Source: Bradyrhizobium sp. BTAi1 (GTDB taxonomy: Bacteria; Pseudomonadota; Alphaproteobacteria; Rhizobiales; Xanthobacteraceae). From it: 64,000 bases of DNA. Both the position numbers and the translations under genes were made by a program. Of the stretch, positions 38,004 through 58,923 are shown in pieces. The stretch is taken from the NCBI RefSeq assembly GCF_000015165.1, contig NC_009485.1, forward strand, positions 3,677,501 to 3,741,500, read 5' to 3'. The notes under the pieces were generated by a model, which made no database searches, was not told where the DNA came from, and saw nothing but the letters and a program-made list of their open reading frames with translations. Position 1 is the stretch's first letter, and each line of letters begins with the position of its first letter.

Positions 38004-39173
38004 ATGACCGCCAGCATCGTCGGATGGGCGCATACGCCGTTTGGAAAGTTCGACGCCGAGACCGTCGAGAGCCTCGTCGTCAAGGTCGCCAATGAGGCGA
38101 TCGCCGACGCCGGCATTTCGGCCGGGGACGTCGACGAGATCGTGCTCGGCCATTTCAATGCCGGCTTCTCAGCCCAGGACTTCACCGCCTCGCTGGTGCT
38201 GCAGGCCGATCCGGCGCTGCGCTTCAAGCCGGCGACCCGGGTGGAGAACGCTTGCGCGACCGGCTCGGCCGCCGTGCACCAGGGCATTCGCGCCATCGCC
38301 GCCGGGGCCGCCAAGATCGTCCTCGTCGTCGGCGTCGAGCAGATGACGCGCACGCCGGGACCGGAGATCGGCAAGAACCTGCTCAAGGCGTCCTACCTGC
38401 CGGAGGACGGCGACACGGTTGGCGGCTTCGCCGGCGTGTTCGGCAAGATCGCGCAAGGCTATTTCCAGAAATACGGCGACCAGTCGGACGCGCTGGCGCT
38501 GATCGCCGCCAAGAACCACAAGAACGGCGTCGCCAATCCCTATGCGCAGATGCGCAAGGATTTCGGCTTCGAGTTCTGCCGCTCCGAGAGCGAGAAGAAC
38601 CCGTATGTCGCCGGCCCCCTGAAGCGCACCGATTGCTCGCTGGTGTCGGACGGCGCCGCCGCTTTGGTGCTGACCGACAGCGAGACCGCCAAGTCGTTCG
38701 CCAAGGCGGTCAATGTCCGTGCCACGGCCCATGCGCAGGACTTCCTGCCGATGTCCAAGCGCGACATCCTCGCCTTCGAGGGCTGCACGGTGGCCTGGCA
38801 GCGCGCGCTGGAGAAGGCCGGTGTCACGCTGTCCGATCTCTCTTTCGTCGAGACCCATGACTGCTTCACGGTCGCCGAGCTGATCGAGTACGAAGCAATG
38901 GGTCTGACGCCCAGGGGACAGGGCGCTCGCGCGATCAAAGAGGGCTGGACGCTCAAGGACGGCAAGCTGCCGGTCAATCCGTCCGGCGGCCTGAAGGCCA
39001 AGGGCCACCCGATCGGCGCCACCGGCGTCTCCATGCATGTGATGACCGCCATGCAGCTCACTGGCACGGCGCCGGAAGGCATGCAGCTCCCCAACGCCAA
39101 GCTCGGCGGCATCTTCAACATGGGCGGCGCCGCAGTGGCGAACTACGTGTCGATTCTGGAGCCGGCGAAGTAG
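38004..39173 (+). CDS. Thiolase-family acetyl-CoA acetyltransferase
   Basis: A 389-residue thiolase of the SCP-x-like branch. The nucleophile Cys is in VENACATGSAAVHQGIRA, and the C-terminal catalytic His segment is GGLKAKGHPIGATGVSMH. The usual second Cys region (CxGGG) is NMGGAAVANY here, as is common in this branch. It should cleave or form 3-ketoacyl-CoA. It lies 73 bases after denD on the same strand, though the metabolic link with sugar uptake is unclear. Start ATG 38004 with GGGAGAGA upstream. Confidence 0.88.
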   Translation: MTASIVGWAHTPFGKFDAETVESLVVKVANEAIADAGISAGDVDEIVLGHFNAGFSAQDFTASLVLQADPALRFKPATRVENACATGSAAVHQGIRAIAAGAAKIVLVVGVEQMTRTPGPEIGKNLLKASYLPEDGDTVGGFAGVFGKIAQGYFQKYGDQSDALALIAAKNHKNGVANPYAQMRKDFGFEFCRSESEKNPYVAGPLKRTDCSLVSDGAAALVLTDSETAKSFAKAVNVRATAHAQDFLPMSKRDILAFEGCTVAWQRALEKAGVTLSDLSFVETHDCFTVAELIEYEAMGLTPRGQGARAIKEGWTLKDGKLPVNPSGGLKAKGHPIGATGVSMHVMTAMQLTGTAPEGMQLPNAKLGGIFNMGGAAVANYVSILEPAK

Positions 39174-45561: not shown

Positions 45562-46767
45562 ATGGGACCGCTTGCGGGCATCAAGGTCATCGACATGACC
45601 ACCGTGCTGATGGGGCCGTATGCCGCCCAGACGCTTGGCGATTACGGCGCCGACGTCATCAAGGTGGAATCGCCCGAGGGCGACGTCACCCGCAAGATCG
45701 GTCCATGGCACCATCCCGGCATGGGACCGGTGTTCCTCAACACCAACCGCAGCAAGCGCGTGATCTGCCTCGACCTGAAGAAGCCGGCCGGCCGAGAGGC
45801 CGTGCTGCGCATGGTCAAGGACGCCGACGTGCTCCTCTATAACATCCGTCCCCAGGCGATGGCGCGGCTGAACCTCGGCTACGACGTGGTGTCTGCGCTC
45901 AATCCGCGGCTGGTCTATGCCGGCGTGTTCGGCTTTGGTCAGGACGGACCCTATGCGGCAAAACCGGCCTATGACGATCTGATCCAGGGCGGGGCGGCTT
46001 TGTCGCATCTGATGGCGGTGGCCGGCGACGGCACGCCGCGCTATGTGCCGAATGCGCTGGTGGACCGCATCGTCGGGCTCACCGCCGTCGGCGCGATCTG
46101 CGCCAGCCTCGTGCATCGCGACCGCAACGGACGCGGCCAGCGCCTGGACGTGCCGATGTTCGAAACCATGTCGGCTTTCATCATGGGCGATCACATGGGC
46201 GGGCTGACCTACGCCCCGCCGCTCGACCGCGGTGGCTATGCCCGGCATCTGTCGCCGGACCGCCGGCCTTACAAGACCGCCGACGGCTACATCTGCGTCA
46301 TCGTCTACAACGACAAGCAATGGGACGCGTTCTTCACTGCGTCAGGCCGCCCCGACCTGCGCGCCGACGACCGCTTCAACAGCTTTGCCCGGCGTGCCGC
46401 GAATATCGACCTCGTCTATGCCGAGCTCGCCCGCATCTTCGAAACGCGCAGCACGGCCGAATGGACTGATCTGCTGGATGCGGCCGACATCCCGGTCATG
46501 CCGATGCACGACCTCGAGAGCCTGCTGCACGATCCGCATCTTGTCGCGACTGATTTCTTTCCTATCGTCCAGCATCCCACCGAAGGCCAGATCCGCAGCA
46601 CCCGCGTCTCGGCGACCTGGTCGGAAACCAAGGCTGAGCCGCAGCGTCTGGCGGCGCGGCCGAACGAGCATGGCGAGGAGATCCTGCGCGAGCTGGGTTT
46701 CTCGCATGACGAGATCGTCGCAATGATCCGCGACGGCGCAACGACCCCGCCGCCTGCAAAGGAGTGA
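45562..46767 (+). CDS. CaiB/BaiF-type CoA-transferase
   Basis: A 401-residue class III CoA-transferase that moves CoA from one carboxylic acid thioester to another. LAGIKVIDMTTVLMGPYAAQ and TLGDYGADVIKVESPEGDVT are the opening signatures; the catalytic Asp is expected in AYDDLIQGGAALSHLMA, and QRLDVPMFETMSAFIMGDHM is also characteristic. It begins a four-gene group with only 4-base gaps or overlaps around the next gene, and likely activates a free acid for oxidation by the following acyl-CoA dehydrogenase. Confidence 0.9.
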   Translation: MGPLAGIKVIDMTTVLMGPYAAQTLGDYGADVIKVESPEGDVTRKIGPWHHPGMGPVFLNTNRSKRVICLDLKKPAGREAVLRMVKDADVLLYNIRPQAMARLNLGYDVVSALNPRLVYAGVFGFGQDGPYAAKPAYDDLIQGGAALSHLMAVAGDGTPRYVPNALVDRIVGLTAVGAICASLVHRDRNGRGQRLDVPMFETMSAFIMGDHMGGLTYAPPLDRGGYARHLSPDRRPYKTADGYICVIVYNDKQWDAFFTASGRPDLRADDRFNSFARRAANIDLVYAELARIFETRSTAEWTDLLDAADIPVMPMHDLESLLHDPHLVATDFFPIVQHPTEGQIRSTRVSATWSETKAEPQRLAARPNEHGEEILRELGFSHDEIVAMIRDGATTPPPAKE

Positions 46768-46771
46768 CCCG

Positions 46772-47938
46772 ATGGATTTCGCGCTCTCCGCCAACCAGGA
46801 CTCGATCCGCGATGCGGTGGCCAGGATCTGTGCCCGGTTCGACGACGCCTACTGGCTGAAGAAGGACAAGGAGGGCGGCTTTCCCGCCGACTTCCACAAG
46901 GCGCTGGCCGACGCCGGCTGGCTCGGCATCTGCATTCCGGAAGCGTATGGCGGTTCCGGTCTCGGCATTCTCGATGCCGCGATCATGATGCGCACGATCG
47001 CGGAGTCCGGCGCCGGCATGAGCGGCGCCTCGGCGATCCACATGAACGTGTTCGGGCTCAATCCGGTCGTCGTGTTCGGCACCAAGGAGCAGTGCGCGCG
47101 GATGCTGCCGGGCATCGTCGATGGCAGCGAGAAGGCGTGCTTCGCGGTGACCGAGCCGAACACCGGCCTCAATACGACGCAGCTGAAGACCCGCGCGGTG
47201 CGCAAGGGCGACCGCTACGTTGTCAATGGCCAAAAGGTATGGATCTCGACCGCGCAGGTCGCCGAGAAGATCCTGCTGCTCGCGCGCACCACGCCGCTCG
47301 AGGAGGTCAAGCGCCCGACTCACGGACTGAGCCTGTTCTACACGGATTTCGACCGCAGCCGCATCAAGGTGCACGAGATCGAGAAGATGGGCCGCAAGCC
47401 GGTCGACTCCAACGAGCTGTTCTTCGAAGATTTCGAGATTCCGGTCGAGGATCGCTTGGGCGAGGAGGGGCGGGGCTTCGACTACATCCTGCACGGCATG
47501 AACCCCGAGCGTATCCTCATTGCTGCAGAGGCCGTCGGTCTCGGCCATCTCGCGCTGTCGCGCGCCTCGGCCTATGCGCGGACGCGTAACGTGTTCAACC
47601 GGCCGATCGGCCAGAACCAGGGCATCCAGCATCCTCTGGCAAAGAACTGGATGGAGCTGGAAGCGGCGTGGCTGATGGTGCTGCAGGCCGGCTGGCAATA
47701 CGACCAGGGCATGGCCTGCGGGCCGGCGGCGAATGCCGCGAAGTATCTCGCCGCCGAGGCCGGCTTCCACGCCTGCGAGCAGGCGGTCATGACCCATGGC
47801 GGCTTCGGCTACGCGCGTGAGTATCATGTCGAGCGATACCTCCGCGAATCCCTGATCCCCCGCATCGCCCCGATCAGCCCGCAGCTGATCTTGGCCTTCA
47901 TCGCCGAGAAGGTCCTCGGTATGCCAAAATCGTATTGA
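46772..47938 (+). CDS. Acyl-CoA dehydrogenase
   Basis: A 388-residue FAD enzyme that introduces a 2,3-double bond into an acyl-CoA. FAD and substrate segments are CFAVTEPNTGLNTTQLKTRA and VVNGQKVWISTAQVAEKILL; the C-terminal helix QAVMTHGGFGYAREYHVERY is clear. The usual EGTNE segment that carries the catalytic Glu is PRIAPISPQLI here, a known variant branch in which the base lies elsewhere. It starts four bases after the CoA-transferase stop. Confidence 0.9.
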   Translation: MDFALSANQDSIRDAVARICARFDDAYWLKKDKEGGFPADFHKALADAGWLGICIPEAYGGSGLGILDAAIMMRTIAESGAGMSGASAIHMNVFGLNPVVVFGTKEQCARMLPGIVDGSEKACFAVTEPNTGLNTTQLKTRAVRKGDRYVVNGQKVWISTAQVAEKILLLARTTPLEEVKRPTHGLSLFYTDFDRSRIKVHEIEKMGRKPVDSNELFFEDFEIPVEDRLGEEGRGFDYILHGMNPERILIAAEAVGLGHLALSRASAYARTRNVFNRPIGQNQGIQHPLAKNWMELEAAWLMVLQAGWQYDQGMACGPAANAAKYLAAEAGFHACEQAVMTHGGFGYAREYHVERYLRESLIPRIAPISPQLILAFIAEKVLGMPKSY

Positions 47939-48341
47939 GATGAGTTCTTGCTGAGATGTTGAGCGCAATCATCAGGGACGCACGATACCCGTATTCCCTC
48001 CCTTGTGGGGGAGGGACAGGGAGGGCGGTCCCCTACGGGGACTCGTCGTATGAGGATACCGGCGTCGGTCGATTTTCCGGACTGGCCGACGTGAGCACAT
48101 GCCCCGGGGCTCGCGGGGGGCTCGCCTCTCCCCGCGTGCGGGGAGAGGCCGGATTGCATCGAAGATGCAATCCGGGTGAGGGGAACTCTCCACGCACTGA
48201 ACTCGTGGAGAGTTCTCCTCTCCCCGCGCACGGAGAGAGGGGGCGCACCGCCCGCGTCGCACAATCTCGGGTCAAGCTACAGGGGGCCGACACGACCCTG
48301 TGCGCAGTGAGGGAAGCGCAGCGGCACTCGGGGCTGGCGCC
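47939..48341. other. Intergenic with repeated palindromic elements
   Basis: The gap holds CTCCCTTGTGGGGGAGGGAC near 47998, then from 48125 a composite of hairpins: CCTCTCCCCGCGTGCGGGG with GGATTGCATC/GATGCAATCC and a CTCTCCACG/CGTGGAGAG stem to about 48240. These blocks are of the kind dispersed between genes in Bradyrhizobium-type chromosomes. No coding frame is credible. They separate the acyl-CoA dehydrogenase from the thiolase-like gene. Confidence 0.65.
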
Positions 48342-49478
48342 ATGACCTACATCACCGGCACCGGCCTCACCGCGTTTGGCAAGCACGATGGGCGCTCGTC
48401 GCTCGATTTGATGAGCATGGCAGCACAGCTCGCGCTCGACGATGCCGGGCTCACGCGGCGCGACATTGACGGCATCCTGTGCGGATACTCCACCGTGTCG
48501 CCGCACATCATGCTCGCGACCGTGTTCGCCGAGCATTTCGGCATCACGCCGTCCTATGCTCACGCCGTGCAGGTCGGCGGCGCCACCGGGCTCGCAATGG
48601 TGATGCTGGCGCATCATCTGGTCGAGGCCGGCGTGGTCAGGCACATGCTCGTCGTCGCTGGCGAGAACCGCCTCACCGGGCAGAGCCGCGATGCGTCGAT
48701 CCAGGCTTTGGCGCAGGTCGGGCATCCCGTCTACGAACTGCCGCTGGGACCGACCATCCCCGCATATTACGGTCTCGTCGCCTCGCGTTACATGCATGAA
48801 CATGGCGTCACCGAGCAGGACCTTGCCGAATTCGCGGTGCTGATGCGCACGCATGCGCTCGACCATCCCGGCGCCCAGTTCCATGATCCGATCACGGTGG
48901 CTGACGTCATGGCATCCAAGCCGGTGGCGCGGCCCCTGAAGCTGCTCGACTGCTGCCCGGTGTCCGATGGCGGCGCGGCCACCATCGTCAGCCGCGAACC
49001 GACCGGAGCCGCAGCGGTGCGTGTGCGCGGCTGTGCCCAGGCGCACACGCATCAACACATCACGGCGGCGCCGGCGCTGAGCAACCTCGGGGCCGAGATC
49101 GCGATCACGAAGGCCAAAGCCGCTGCCGGGGTCGAGATCGTCGATGTCGACTACGCGGCGGTCTATGACAGTTTCACGATCACGCTCTGCATGCTGCTCG
49201 AGGATCTCGGTCTGGCCGGCCGTGGCGAGGCGGCTGCGCGTGTCAGGGCCGGCCATTTTGGCCGTGCGGGCGCGGTGCCGCTCAACACCCATGGCGGGCT
49301 GTTGAGCTATGGCCATTGCGGCGTCGGCGGCGCGATGGCGCATCTCAACGAGGCGCATCTGCAAATGACGGGACGGGCCGGCCACCGGCAGGTGCGCGAG
49401 GCGTCGCTGTCGCTGCTGCATGGCGATGGCGGCGTGCTGTCGTCGCATGTCAGCATGTTCTGGGAGCGGGTGCGATGA
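48342..49478 (+). CDS. Thiolase-like protein lacking the nucleophilic Cys (Ltp/SCP-x type)
   Basis: A 378-residue thiolase-fold protein. The fold is clear: YITGTGLTAFGKHDGRSSLD, ALDDAGLTRRDIDGILCGYS, and a C-terminal GLLSYGHCGVGGAMAHLNEA in place of the GHPxGxTG segment. At the nucleophile position it reads QVGGATGLAMV, where active thiolases have C-A-S/T-G, so the Cys is replaced by Gly. Ltp2-type proteins with this loss act as retro-aldolases on steroid or other side-chain CoA thioesters, together with a DUF35 partner; the next gene is such a partner and overlaps by four bases. The start ATG is at 48342. Confidence 0.82.
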   Translation: MTYITGTGLTAFGKHDGRSSLDLMSMAAQLALDDAGLTRRDIDGILCGYSTVSPHIMLATVFAEHFGITPSYAHAVQVGGATGLAMVMLAHHLVEAGVVRHMLVVAGENRLTGQSRDASIQALAQVGHPVYELPLGPTIPAYYGLVASRYMHEHGVTEQDLAEFAVLMRTHALDHPGAQFHDPITVADVMASKPVARPLKLLDCCPVSDGGAATIVSREPTGAAAVRVRGCAQAHTHQHITAAPALSNLGAEIAITKAKAAAGVEIVDVDYAAVYDSFTITLCMLLEDLGLAGRGEAAARVRAGHFGRAGAVPLNTHGGLLSYGHCGVGGAMAHLNEAHLQMTGRAGHRQVREASLSLLHGDGGVLSSHVSMFWERVR

Positions 49479-49831
49479 GCGAGGCGGCTGACTGGACCCG
49501 GGGTGAGGCCGTGATTCGCTACCAGCGCTGCGAGTCGTGCTCTCACCTGCAGTACTTCCGGCGCAGCTTCTGTTCGGCCTGCGGCTCGGCGGCCGTCACC
49601 GACCACCAGGCGAGCGGTATGGGCACCGTCTACGCGACATCATCGGTCTGCCGGGCTGCAACGCCGGAGACGCGCGCCCATGTGCCTTACAACATCGTGC
49701 TCGTGGATATGCGCGAGGGCTTTCGGATGATGGCCCATGGCGACCATGATCTTGCGATCGGCGACGGGGTCGAAGTCCGCTTCGTCGCCTTCGCAGGCGG
49801 CACCGTGCCATATTTCGGCAAAACGGAATGA
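49475..49831 (+). CDS. Zn-ribbon OB-fold protein (DUF35), partner of the thiolase-like protein
   Basis: A 118-residue protein with a four-Cys zinc ribbon (RCESCSHLQYFRRSFCSACG) followed by an OB-fold domain (GMGTVYATSSVCRAA, IVLVDMREGFRMMAHGDHDL, VEVRFVAFAGGTVPYF). DUF35 proteins bind acyl-CoA thioesters and assemble with thiolase-like enzymes or hydratases. The ATG overlaps the stop of the thiolase-like gene by four bases (ATGA), so a stable complex is likely. Confidence 0.9.
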   Translation: MSEAADWTRGEAVIRYQRCESCSHLQYFRRSFCSACGSAAVTDHQASGMGTVYATSSVCRAATPETRAHVPYNIVLVDMREGFRMMAHGDHDLAIGDGVEVRFVAFAGGTVPYFGKTE

Positions 49832-52358: not shown

Positions 52359-52742
52359 GGCAAGCTCGGCGGGGGAGTCGATCGCGCGCCGGTTATGTCG
52401 CAGCTGCGTTGCAGCAGCCAGCCCACACTTGGTGCAAGTCTGGTCAAATGTTGCTGCTGCTCATGAATTGAGCTGCCGCGCGCACGCAGAGATGCGGTCG
52501 GGGGCTGCCGGGAGGCGGGGACGATCGGGCTGAGGCGAGGGCGGTGCGGTGCGACAGCACCGTCGCCAAAATGAATGCCTGCCATGCCATTGCGAATTGC
52601 GCTGACAGGCCGCGTCTTGTGCCAACACGCTGAACAACGGTGGGTTTTAGAAACGCTCTGCTGTTGTGAGGGAAAAACGGCTGGGCTAGCTTGTTCTGCA
52701 AGCGGAATTTAATTCCGCACCATGGAATTGAGTGGAACGCGC
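52359..52742. other. Intergenic region between divergent glsA and iclR-type genes
   Basis: No gene is recognised. The right end carries the IclR-type palindrome at 52702-52718. The rest has no clear repeat or promoter. Confidence 0.5.
52702..52718. promoter_or_regulatory. IclR-type operator
   Basis: GCGGAATT-T-AATTCCGC is a perfect 17-base palindrome immediately before the IclR gene. GGAAT/ATTCC arms are typical of IclR-family sites. Its position implies autoregulation, perhaps together with the downstream carboxyltransferase gene. Confidence 0.6.
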
Positions 52743-53729
52743 ATGGGACGACGGTCTGAGCGATTGAGCAGGGTGGGGATGCTGCCTGGAGATCTCGCCG
52801 GTGACGGCGAGGTGATTCAGGTGGTGTCGCGGGCGTTCGACGTACTTCGTTGCTTCGAGGGGCACGAGGCGCGGCTGGGCAATTTAGAGATCTCGAACCG
52901 CTGTGGTCTGCCGCGGTCGACGGTGTCTCGGCTGACGCACACGCTGACCCGGATGGGCCAACTGGTGTATCTGCCGCGCGATCAGAAGTACCGGATCGGC
53001 CCGAGCGCGGTGGCCATGAGCACGTCGATGACGCGGGGCTTGCAGCTGCGCAACCTGATCCGCCAGCGCCTGCAGGACGTCGCGGAGCAGTTGCCGGGGA
53101 CGGTCGGTTTCGTCATTCCCGATCGCTTCCACCTCGTCTATCTGGAGTTCGGCCGTGCTGCGAATGCGCTCGGGCTGCACGAGACCACCGGCAGCCGGAT
53201 CTCGATGGCGTCGACCGCGGCTGGCCACGCTTATGTCGCAGCCCTCGAGCCCGAGGTCGGCGATGCCCTGCTGACCGAGATGGAACGCGAGCTGCCGGAT
53301 GCGGCGAGGCTGCTGCGGCCGCGGCTGGAGCACAACAGGCAGTTCCTCAAGGAGCATGGCTATGTGGTGGCCTGCGGCCTGTGGAGCCCGCATATCAACG
53401 GTGTCGCGCTGCCGCTGTGGTCGCCGCAGTACCAGACCTATGTCGTGCTCACGATCGGGCTGCTGTCCGCGATGTATGACGAGCAACGCCTGCATGACGA
53501 GGTGGCGCAGCCGATGCTCGAACTCGGCCGCAGCGTCGCTGCGCTGCTGCAGGGGGCCGAGGCCGACGTCTTCAACAGCCGGATGGAAAGAAAGCCGCTG
53601 CCTGTGACCACGAAGACCAACCACAAGAACAAGACCATCACCGGGGCAGGGGGAACGAATGAGTTGGCAGCCGGAGCTCGAGGAACTGGCCCGGCGCGAA
53701 GCCTTCGCGCGGGAGATGGGCGGGCCTGA
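52743..53729 (+). CDS. IclR-family transcriptional regulator
   Basis: A 328-residue regulator (335 if translation starts at the ATG at 52722). The helix-turn-helix is FEGHEARLGNLEISNRCGLP followed by RSTVSRLTHTLTRMGQLVYL; the effector domain runs from ~100 to ~275 (GRAANALGLHETTGSRISMA, STAAGHAYVAALEPE). The C-terminal ~45 residues (KTNHKNKTITGAGGTNELAA and on) are low-complexity and run 71 bases into the next gene in another frame, so that tail may be non-functional. GAGTGGA lies before the ATG at 52743. It likely controls the carboxyltransferase gene. Confidence 0.85.
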   Translation: MGRRSERLSRVGMLPGDLAGDGEVIQVVSRAFDVLRCFEGHEARLGNLEISNRCGLPRSTVSRLTHTLTRMGQLVYLPRDQKYRIGPSAVAMSTSMTRGLQLRNLIRQRLQDVAEQLPGTVGFVIPDRFHLVYLEFGRAANALGLHETTGSRISMASTAAGHAYVAALEPEVGDALLTEMERELPDAARLLRPRLEHNRQFLKEHGYVVACGLWSPHINGVALPLWSPQYQTYVVLTIGLLSAMYDEQRLHDEVAQPMLELGRSVAALLQGAEADVFNSRMERKPLPVTTKTNHKNKTITGAGGTNELAAGARGTGPARSLRAGDGRA

Positions 53730-55218
53730 CAAGGTCAAGCGTCAGCACGACCAGGGCCGCCTGACTGTCCGCGAGCGCATCGACGGCGTCGTCGATGCCG
53801 GCAGCTTCCACGAGATCGGCGCCGTCGCCGGTCTCGGCGAATATGACGAGCAGGGCGAGCTGAAACATGTGACGCCCGCCAATTGCGTGTTCGGACGTGC
53901 CCGCATCGACGGCCGCACCGTCGTCGTGGTCGGCGACGATTTCACTGTGCGCGGCGGCTCGGCCGATGCGTCGATCGCCGCCAAGCCGCTGATGGCGGAG
54001 GAGATGGCGCACGATTTCCGTCTGCCCATCATCCGCATCATCGAGGGCTCCGGCGGCGGCGGCTCGGTCAAGACGATCGAGACCAAGGGCGCGGCCAATC
54101 TGCCCGGCGGCATCGGCGGCAATCGCTGGTATCGCTACACGACCGAGAACATGTCGCTGGTGCCGGTGGTCGCGCTCGGCCTCGGCTCGGTCGCAGGCCT
54201 CGGCGCCGCGCGGCTTGCCGCCAGCCACTATTCGGTGATGACCAAGCAATCGGCGATGTTCGTCGCCGGTCCCCCGGTGGTGAAGCGGCTCGGCCAGGAC
54301 CTCGGCAAGATGGAGCTCGGCGGCGCCGACATCCAGACCCGCGCCGGCGGCGTCGATCATGCGGTCGACACCGAGGCGGAAGCCTTCGCCTGCGCGCGCC
54401 GCTTCCTGTCGTATCTGCCGTCGTCGGTGTACGAACTGCCGCCGACCTTGCCCTGCACCGACGATCCGCAGCGCACCGACGAGCAGTTGATCAGCGCCGT
54501 GCCGCGGGATCGCCGTCGGGTCTACAAGATGCGGCCGATCATCGAGTCCGTGGTCGACAGCGGCTCGTTCTTCGAGGTGGCGCAGAACTACGGCCGCCCG
54601 ATCATCATCGGACTCGCGCGTCTCGAAGGCCGCGCGGTGATGGTGCTCGCGAGCGATCCCTATCACTATGGTGGCTCATGGACGGCGGATGCCTGCCAGA
54701 AGGTGATCCGCTGGGTCGACTTTGCCGAGACGTTCCATCTGCCGATCGTCTATCTGATGGATTGCCCGGGCTTCATGGTCGGTCTCGAGGCCGAGAAGGC
54801 GGCGACGATTCGCCACGGTGTGCGCGCGATGGCGGCGGTCAACCAGTCGACGGTACCGTGGTGCACGGTGATCGTACGCAACTCGTTCGGTGTTGCGGGC
54901 GTCGTGCATCAGCCGGCCGACCGCTTCTCGATCCGTTACGCCTGGCCATCGGCCTATTGGGGCTCGCTGCCGCTCGAAGGCGGCATCGAGGCCGCCTATC
55001 GTGCCGAGATCGATGCCGCGCCGGATCCGAAGGCCAAGCTCAAGGAGATCGAGGAGCGGCTGAACAAGCTGCGCTCGCCGTTCCGCTCGGCCGAGAAGTT
55101 CTGGGTCGAGGAGATCATCGACCCGCGCAAGACGCGCGCGCTGCTCTGCGAGTTCGCGCGCCTCGCCGAGCCGTTGCGGACGGTCGGTCCGCCGACCGCG
55201 ATGACGACGCGGCCATGA
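53659..55218 (+). CDS. Acyl-CoA carboxylase, carboxyltransferase (beta) subunit
   Basis: A 519-residue biotin-dependent carboxyltransferase. Two crotonase-like halves are visible: HDQGRLTVRERIDGVVDAGS, IIRIIEGSGGGGSVKTIETK (glycine-rich acyl-CoA site) and, in the second half, FAETFHLPIVYLMDCPGFMV and GSLPLEGGIEAAYRAEIDAA. It resembles propionyl- or methylcrotonyl-type subunits, but the specificity is not clear. No biotin carboxylase (alpha) gene is nearby, so the partner is encoded elsewhere. A GGGGG site precedes the ATG at 53659. It overlaps the IclR gene by 71 bases. Confidence 0.88.
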   Translation: MSWQPELEELARREAFAREMGGPDKVKRQHDQGRLTVRERIDGVVDAGSFHEIGAVAGLGEYDEQGELKHVTPANCVFGRARIDGRTVVVVGDDFTVRGGSADASIAAKPLMAEEMAHDFRLPIIRIIEGSGGGGSVKTIETKGAANLPGGIGGNRWYRYTTENMSLVPVVALGLGSVAGLGAARLAASHYSVMTKQSAMFVAGPPVVKRLGQDLGKMELGGADIQTRAGGVDHAVDTEAEAFACARRFLSYLPSSVYELPPTLPCTDDPQRTDEQLISAVPRDRRRVYKMRPIIESVVDSGSFFEVAQNYGRPIIIGLARLEGRAVMVLASDPYHYGGSWTADACQKVIRWVDFAETFHLPIVYLMDCPGFMVGLEAEKAATIRHGVRAMAAVNQSTVPWCTVIVRNSFGVAGVVHQPADRFSIRYAWPSAYWGSLPLEGGIEAAYRAEIDAAPDPKAKLKEIEERLNKLRSPFRSAEKFWVEEIIDPRKTRALLCEFARLAEPLRTVGPPTAMTTRP

Positions 55219-58038: not shown

Positions 58039-58809
58039 CTATCGCTTGCGGTCGATGAACCCCTGCATCAGCCGCTTCGGCTCGTCGGTGAGGAACGCGC
58101 GTCCGAAGGTGCCGACCGACAGTTCGATCGCATCCTTCAACGGCAGATCCTCCCATTGCCGCAGCAGGGCCTTCTGCGCCCGGAGCGCGTGCGGGCCGCA
58201 GGCGAGCAGCGACGCCACGGCCTTTTCCACCGCCGCATCCAATTCTCCTGCCAACGCCACGGCATCGACGAGACCCCAGGCGAGCGCGGTCGGCGCATCG
58301 ACCGTCTCGGCCGTCAGCAGCAGCCAGCGGGTGCGGCCCCAGCCGATCAGCCGGGGCAGCAGCGCGGCATGAATCACCGAGGGAATGCCGACGCGTACTT
58401 CTGGCATACCGAATTTGGCATCATGTGCTGCAACGCGAAGATCGCAGGCGGCCGCCACCTCCAGCCCGCCGCCCAGGCACCAGCCGGGTAGCCGGGCGAT
58501 CACGGGGGCCGGAAATGTTCGCACCGCGTCGCAAAGTTCAGCGAGGCGGGTGATGAAAGCCTCTGCGGAGGCCTGGTCGAGCGTCGCCATCTCCTTGATG
58601 TCGGCGCCGCCGATCATGCTCTTTTCGCTTGCTCCGGCGAAGAGGAGGACGCGAATGCTCTCGTCTGCGGCGAGCGACTGCAGTCCTTCTTTGATGCCGG
58701 CGATTGCGCTTGAGCCGAGAATGTTGAGCGTCCCGGCGTTGCAGATCGTCAGCCGGGCCACCCCACGGCCGTCGCGGCTGACGCCGCAGTATGGATTGAG
58801 CATGTCCAT
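58039..58809 (-). CDS. Enoyl-CoA hydratase/isomerase family protein
   Basis: A 256-residue crotonase-fold protein. The oxyanion-hole segments are SEKSMIGGADIKEMATLDQA and ARLPGWCLGGGLEVAAACDL; the latter ends with the conserved LGGGLE. The Glu pair of hydratases is partly visible in FGMPEVRVGIPSVIHAALLP. It probably hydrates or isomerises an enoyl-CoA. The ATG at 58809 has GAGG six bases upstream. It is divergent from a TetR regulator that may control it. Confidence 0.88.
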   Translation of the reverse strand: MDMLNPYCGVSRDGRGVARLTICNAGTLNILGSSAIAGIKEGLQSLAADESIRVLLFAGASEKSMIGGADIKEMATLDQASAEAFITRLAELCDAVRTFPAPVIARLPGWCLGGGLEVAAACDLRVAAHDAKFGMPEVRVGIPSVIHAALLPRLIGWGRTRWLLLTAETVDAPTALAWGLVDAVALAGELDAAVEKAVASLLACGPHALRAQKALLRQWEDLPLKDAIELSVGTFGRAFLTDEPKRLMQGFIDRKR

Positions 58810-58923
58810 GGCCGGCCTCGTAAGGTTGTCGTGTTCATGAAGCGCGCCGAGCCTGAACGGCATCGAGCCTTAGATCAACTCGAATTCATCAAATTGCTGC
58901 GGCGATCCGCGCGCGGAGCTGCT

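Follow-up and report, generated by a model that had tools for sequence, protein, structure and literature searches.

A Cys-less thiolase-like protein and its DUF35 partner in Bradyrhizobium sp. BTAi1, a putative retro-aldol CoA-lyase of a branch separate from Ltp2 and Sal

Among the described proteins of the thiolase family that carry Gly in place of the nucleophilic Cys and have a DUF35 partner are the Ltp2-ChsH1-ChsH2 system (TcLtp2, a proven aldolase; 6ok1) and the Sal-Shy bile acid aldolase (CtSal; 9myr), in both of which a Tyr is the catalytic base according to PMC12329534. In the Ltp2 system ChsH1 is the active and ChsH2 an inert MaoC, as given in PMC11321319. IpfD-IpfE of pIBU218 combines a Cys-less thiolase-like protein with a separate small DUF35 protein and CoA activation, ring-dihydroxylated ibuprofen-CoA being split by retro-aldol reaction without a hydratase step (PMC9195938). 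We have compared with these systems a gene pair from a 64,000-nucleotide stretch of the Bradyrhizobium sp. BTAi1 genome (contig NC_009485.1, positions 3,677,501 to 3,741,500; hereafter the window), which encodes a thiolase-like protein, P0005, and a DUF35 protein. On the evidence of these sequences we propose, with moderate confidence, that the pair is a retro-aldol CoA-lyase of CoA-activated acids, its substrates probably being carboxylic acids below the size of steroids. The features of the locus, in window coordinates, are as follows.

45562-46767, + strand: CaiB/BaiF (family III) CoA-transferase, P0003 (Pfam CoA_transf_3, 354 bits)
46772-47938, + strand: acyl-CoA dehydrogenase (ACAD), P0004 (Pfam Acyl-CoA_dh N, M and 1)
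47985-48260, no strand: dispersed palindromic repeat DNA between the ACAD and P0005 genes (genome matches and inverted repeats)
48342-49478, + strand: Cys-less thiolase-like protein P0005, putative CoA-lyase (Pfam Thiolase_N and Thiolase_C_1; ATG start)
49475-49831, + strand: DUF35 partner of P0005 (Pfam zf-ChsH2 and OB_ChsH2_C)

The motif at the nucleophile position of P0005 is QVGGATG, and Gly80 lies opposite the Cys that 7yvy and 6esq carry within EAACASG, in agreement with the original prediction, made from the DNA alone, that GGATG replaces CASG. Relatives were taken as the best 80 of 517 loci, nearly all titled Bradyrhizobium, and in all 80 Gly80 is identical, as are Tyr275-Asp-Ser-Phe278, His317, His325, His360 and Asp362. 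Gly likewise occupies the Cys position in all 20 rows of clade A, the branch of the family tree that contains P0005, and YDSF, GHxGV and H(G/A)DGG are present in each. The median ratio of nonsynonymous to synonymous substitution (dN/dS) is 0.09 in 12 rows with an ACAD gene and 0.07 in another 25 in which no ACAD gene was counted. Combined, site identity and these ratios indicate that the Cys-less active site is not a matter of chance. P0005 thus lacks the CASG/CATG Cys of the Cys-type thiolases (SCPx, acetoacetyl-CoA thiolase) and shares with the Cys-less, DUF35-linked group its family, Gly for Cys, the Tyr of the YD motif and an adjacent DUF35 gene; with Gly at the nucleophile position, thiolysis is not expected.

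Tyr275 (YDSF) aligns with the base Tyr of Ltp2 (Tyr294, YDHF) and of Sal (Tyr302, YDCY). In contrast, Ser277 lies opposite a His of Ltp2 and a Cys of Sal, and His325 (GHC) takes the position of the catalytic Tyr344 of Ltp2 and of Gln352 of Sal; YDHF and GEAY/GEGY are found in all four Ltp2-type rows and in none of these positions in P0005. His360 lies within HGDGG, at what we take to be the position of Cys378 of classical thiolases. Judged from these alignments, P0005 keeps the base Tyr and has its own second half of the catalytic set. The solved sequence closest to P0005 is 4u4e (3.3e-55), labelled 'Thiolase' and with no function found, which carries the same Tyr/Ser/His/His set; Sal ranks second and Ltp2 fourth.

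The DUF35 gene overlaps that of P0005 by four bases, stop and start sharing ATGA, and the overlap recurs in 79 of the 80 relatives. The encoded protein has 118 residues, comprising a zinc ribbon (C19-x2-C22-x10-C33-x2-C36) and an OB fold with no MaoC domain by Pfam, so that the hydratase part is absent; the four zinc-ribbon Cys are kept in 80/80 relatives. Both the overlap and the missing hydratase part had been predicted, as had the CaiB-type CoA-transferase and ACAD upstream, which Pfam confirms on the same strand. The gap of 403 bp between the ACAD and P0005 genes contains the palindromic repeat, which has 31 matches in the genome including its own site as well as inverted repeats and is not part of the mechanism. 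A promoter and terminator scan found nothing. The best NCBIfam model for P0005, PRK06158 ('acetyl-CoA acetyltransferase'), scores 283.8 bits, far below its cut-off of 421.

A tree of 54 rows, 51 Cys-less and three Cys thiolases, separates the two groups with support of 100/100. P0005 belongs to clade A, whose 20 rows (100/100) join seven clade B rows in a group of 27 (100/99). Clade B does not count L049, L079-L081 and L170, which form a third group marked by YDCF and HNEGG/HTEGG, or L082, which fell elsewhere. In a second large clade of 15 rows (98/97) are Sal, the group formed by Ltp2 and the likely IpfD (99/95), another four DUF35-linked proteins encoded in the BTAi1 genome, and 4u4e, which differs from P0005 in this placement. 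Forcing clade A together with Ltp2-IpfD or with Sal was rejected by the approximately unbiased test (p-AU 0.000489 and 0.000773, respectively; two trees and one model in each case). Placement is unsure on the long branches of the likely IpfD, L004 and the SCPx protein of the window. Thus, P0005 stands in the tree on a branch of its own, neither Ltp2 nor Sal. The predicted Ltp2-ChsH2-type arrangement therefore holds as a Cys-less thiolase-like protein with a DUF35 partner but not as membership of the Ltp2 family, given the separate clade and the other second catalytic residues; the comparison with Ltp2 that the original prediction had called for came out against it.

The Sal system differs further in its DUF35 protein, Shy, which has a C3H1 zinc finger, compared with the C4 type of the BTAi1 partner, and is fused to MaoC; from the Ltp2 system too the BTAi1 DUF35 protein differs in being unfused and in having no such hydratase at the locus. 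On pIBU218 the likely IpfD, whose record reads hypothetical protein, was recognised by its gene order; its neighbours encode OB-fold, AMP-ligase and ring-dioxygenase proteins. Unlike P0005, it carries YDAF, has a Tyr aligned with Tyr344 of Ltp2, joins Ltp2 in the tree by a long branch and receives its substrate from a ring dioxygenase. The same plasmid (L203, 4621-9783; L199, 2516-6134) encodes, besides the likely IpfD, another protein, which is Ltp2-like and is accompanied by genes for CaiB, an OB-fold protein and an enoyl-CoA hydratase-related protein. Two Rhodococcus plasmids carry two CaiB genes, two MaoC-labelled genes and an OB-fold protein gene together with one for a protein that resembles Ltp2 in L200 and Sal in L205.

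By analogy with Ltp2 and Sal, P0005 and the DUF35 protein would form a complex. CaiB would load CoA onto a carboxylic acid, ACAD would introduce a double bond and a hydratase encoded away from the locus would add water. Tyr275 would then take the proton of the beta-hydroxyl of the resulting beta-hydroxyacyl-CoA, the C-C bond would break, and His325 or His360 would protonate the departing acetyl- or propionyl-CoA enolate, an aldehyde or ketone being freed. The hydration step might be provided by a gene of crotonase type at 58039-58863, which lies 8 kb from the pair (PRK06143 'enoyl-CoA hydratase', 431 bits, cut-off 283).

The P0005 gene is present in 55 of the 59 other same-genus genomes searched, at 82–86% identity. 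Elsewhere in the family, another genus has it as well (G703, 82%), and two other genera gave no match. The nearest loci among the best 80 are those of Bradyrhizobium sp. SRS-191, STM 3809 and B. aeschynomenes (91–93% in P0005). In 70 of the 80 loci, those with at least 4.5 kb of upstream and at least 4 kb of downstream DNA, the DUF35 gene and an upstream CaiB gene are constant (70/70 each), CMD is found in 61, ACAD in 12 and a weak crotonase match in two. Thirteen further same-genus loci all have CaiB, DUF35 and CMD, and six have ACAD. ACAD is therefore no fixed part of the locus. The downstream CMD gene was rejected as a needed part, for despite its frequency the BTAi1 genome matches it at only 24–30%.

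The neighbouring enzymes give some indication of the substrate. The PDB entries closest to P0003 are 4ed9 and the succinate-hydroxymethylglutarate CoA-transferase 9br7, and Asp168 (NALVDRIVGL) is presumably the catalytic Asp of the family. Aligned with 1ukw and 5lnx, P0004 has Pro where 1ukw carries the Glu of IYEGT; Glu246, within NPERIL, may be the base, which we assume from a likeness to that of isovaleryl-CoA dehydrogenase. Every one of the seven tested genomes without ACAD at the locus has an 82–86% copy elsewhere, so that loss of ACAD, once considered as proof of a hydroxy-acid substrate, was dropped as an argument; a quick ACAD tree with a very distant outgroup does not tell a moved copy from an old paralogue. 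At seven of the eight distant ACAD sites read, genes for a RipB-like MaoC protein and a RipC/CitE-like lyase lie within the same 20-kb stretch, next to ACAD at some sites and separated from it by a few genes at others (L221, 13732-16281; also L216-L219, L222 and L223). At three of the eight, a 60–61% homolog of the window CaiB and TRAP importer genes are also present. The eighth site, L220, lies among mobile-element-like genes and also has a match to the window CaiB (72%). That the distant ACAD lies near hydratase and C-C lyase genes in all seven tested genomes lacking it here points to the same step order as proposed for the BTAi1 pair.

The pathway logic of these sites resembles the itaconate route (RipB hydratase, RipC lyase), with a close ACAD near RipB/RipC-like genes in seven Bradyrhizobium genomes, but the C-C lyase encoded at these sites is of the CitE type (HpcH_HpaI) and not of the thiolase family. 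Matches to the RipB and RipC models (133.6 of 340 and 180.4 of 375 bits) are both below the curated cut-offs, with beta-methylmalyl-CoA dehydratase and citrate-lyase-like proteins as the nearest sequences of solved structure. At E 1e-60 such a CitE-like lyase is absent from the BTAi1 genome and present in seven of ten genomes queried. The position of the distant copies suggests that ACAD handles a smaller acid, and this, combined with the relatives of CaiB, makes a smaller acid the likelier substrate; the surroundings favour, without proving, carboxylic acids of smaller size.

Outside the genus, 14 clade A loci were compared, three of them from one genus; 7 of 60 listed plasmid rows were read. 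Examples, with identity to P0005, are Cnuibacter physcomitrellae (Actinomycetota, 49%), a strain of the Paracoccaceae (56%), Comamonas endophytica (59%) and Methylobacterium aquaticum (65%). DUF35 adjoins the gene in all 14, whereas CaiB is found at one and AtuA genes at two. An NDP-forming acyl-CoA synthetase gene lies within 3 kb in 11, ten times downstream and once upstream. MaoC with a companion protein, MaoCa, is encoded beside the gene at two of the 14 loci and at four of seven clade B loci. Both MaoC proteins read have the D-x4-H hydratase dyad while both MaoCa proteins read lack it, a combination that recalls the ChsH1/ChsH2 pairing; two of the companions are related (31% identity, 1e-14). 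If MaoCa is an inert MaoC, the substrate of the relatives that bear it could be bulky. The G703 locus, from another genus of the family, combines AMP-ligase-like, CaiB, ACAD, thiolase-like, DUF35 and CoA synthetase genes. Thus, the logic of hydration followed by cleavage is visible in relatives but not at the BTAi1 locus.

Other genes near the relatives' pairs were considered as guides to the substrate. At L164 and L165, AtuA (76% identical), AtuA_ferredoxin and Tct importer genes are near the clade A pair, and at L166 and L168, from a Paracoccaceae strain and an actinobacterium, the pair is beside genes for a split transketolase (63% in both parts), a glycerol dehydrogenase (44%) and SDR proteins. 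AtuA, the split transketolase and the Tct, TRAP and LivK-type importers gave no single answer.

Several results weigh against a retro-aldol lyase fed in this manner. Neither an NDP-forming CoA synthetase nor a MaoC like that of the relatives occurs at any of the 70 full-flank Bradyrhizobium loci, and no MaoCa-like protein was matched in the whole BTAi1 genome, in a search without positive control and with no general MaoC or crotonase search alongside it. The reading of MaoCa as a MaoC depends on record labels in L167 and L169; three of three had no Pfam match, and the one tried against the PDB had no MaoC match. The Sal Cys304 position is Ser in P0005, and CtSal showed no detectable activity once Cys304 was changed to Ser (PMC12329534), so that Ser277 cannot simply replace the Sal Cys and another proton donor is needed; to name His325 or His360 is a guess, and the Sal mechanism does not transfer easily. 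Structure prediction for P0005 (20 Bradyrhizobium sequences) gave a mean predicted local distance difference test (pLDDT) score of 43.9 and no usable model, and was not used. Among open-licence PMC papers we found no activity-tested member of clade A or B and none on clade A, the Sal paper alone being relevant. The predicted sequence of activation, desaturation, hydration and retro-aldol cleavage nevertheless stands as the best reading, with CoA synthetase and MaoC genes in relatives in its favour, but the scarcity of ACAD and the absence of the relatives' MaoC at the Bradyrhizobium loci keep it from standing in full.

The same absences, with the constancy of CaiB, the thiolase-like gene and DUF35, would suit a lyase whose substrate does not come from beta-oxidation, CaiB activating an already hydroxylated acid, and IpfDE provides the precedent. 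We regard this as unlikely, since the tested genomes without ACAD at the locus keep a close copy elsewhere and MaoC genes occur in some relatives. Decarboxylases of the malonyl-CoA type and condensing enzymes running a forward aldol reaction also share the fold and the enolate chemistry, and a trypanosome thiolase-like protein is reported to show weak malonyl-CoA decarboxylation; CtSal, however, showed no such activity (both in PMC12329534), and the neighbours here and in relatives (CoA-transferase, ACAD, importers) look catabolic, which makes a non-catabolic role quite improbable. Thiolysis through another Cys, Cys204 or Cys205 (LDCCPVSDG) or Cys326 (GHC), is very improbable. Cys204 and Cys205 are invariant across the eight rows of A1, but the pair also occurs in TcLtp2 and 4u4e and so is no argument for thiolysis, the relatives include some with Ser or Pro in place of Cys326, and Gly80 is fixed. 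We give hardly any credence to a true Ltp2- or Sal-type aldolase in a set that strips the side chain from a steroid acid, for although family, Gly, Tyr, DUF35 partner and rank among solved sequences are in its favour, the tree rejects the joining, YDSF/His stands against YDHF/Tyr or YDCY/Gln and C4 against C3H1, MaoC is neither fused nor adjacent, and tree, motifs and neighbours give nothing toward steroids (the genome was not searched for genes of steroid ring degradation).

Other genes of the window surround the pair. An SCPx-type thiolase with intact Cys (ENACATG, HDCFT) is encoded at 38004-39173, 6.4 kb away, and such a gene lies upstream of the pair in 71 of the 72 Bradyrhizobium loci with enough DNA. 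The gene at 36926-37930 matches the D-erythronate dehydrogenase model NF043036 (365.4 bits, cut-off 325); the upstream DenD, KDG-kinase and KDPG-aldolase genes, although syntenic, resemble a separate sugar-acid cluster and were not counted in the pathway. An IclR regulator and a carboxyltransferase subunit are encoded within 52722-55218, and a protein of 73–112 residues, one of them read as a biotin carrier, is encoded nearby in nine of 13 same-genus loci.

Returning to the proposed retro-aldol lyase, we suggest, more tentatively, that clades A and B may be a third specialised lineage of thiolase-fold retro-aldol CoA-lyases, with a Tyr/His/His set compared with Tyr/Tyr in Ltp2 and Tyr/Cys in Sal, which would act on non-steroid acids and be served by CaiB, an NDP-forming CoA synthetase or a MaoC pair depending on the host, within an unnamed acid-degrading route kept in most Bradyrhizobium. 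If this is so, thiolase-fold retro-aldol CoA-lyases, for which our searches turned up only steroid and ibuprofen cases, would extend to other carboxylic acids of the soil, and a function would be provided for a gene set that nearly all of the same-genus genomes searched keep and whose nearest model is labelled as an acetyl-CoA acetyltransferase.

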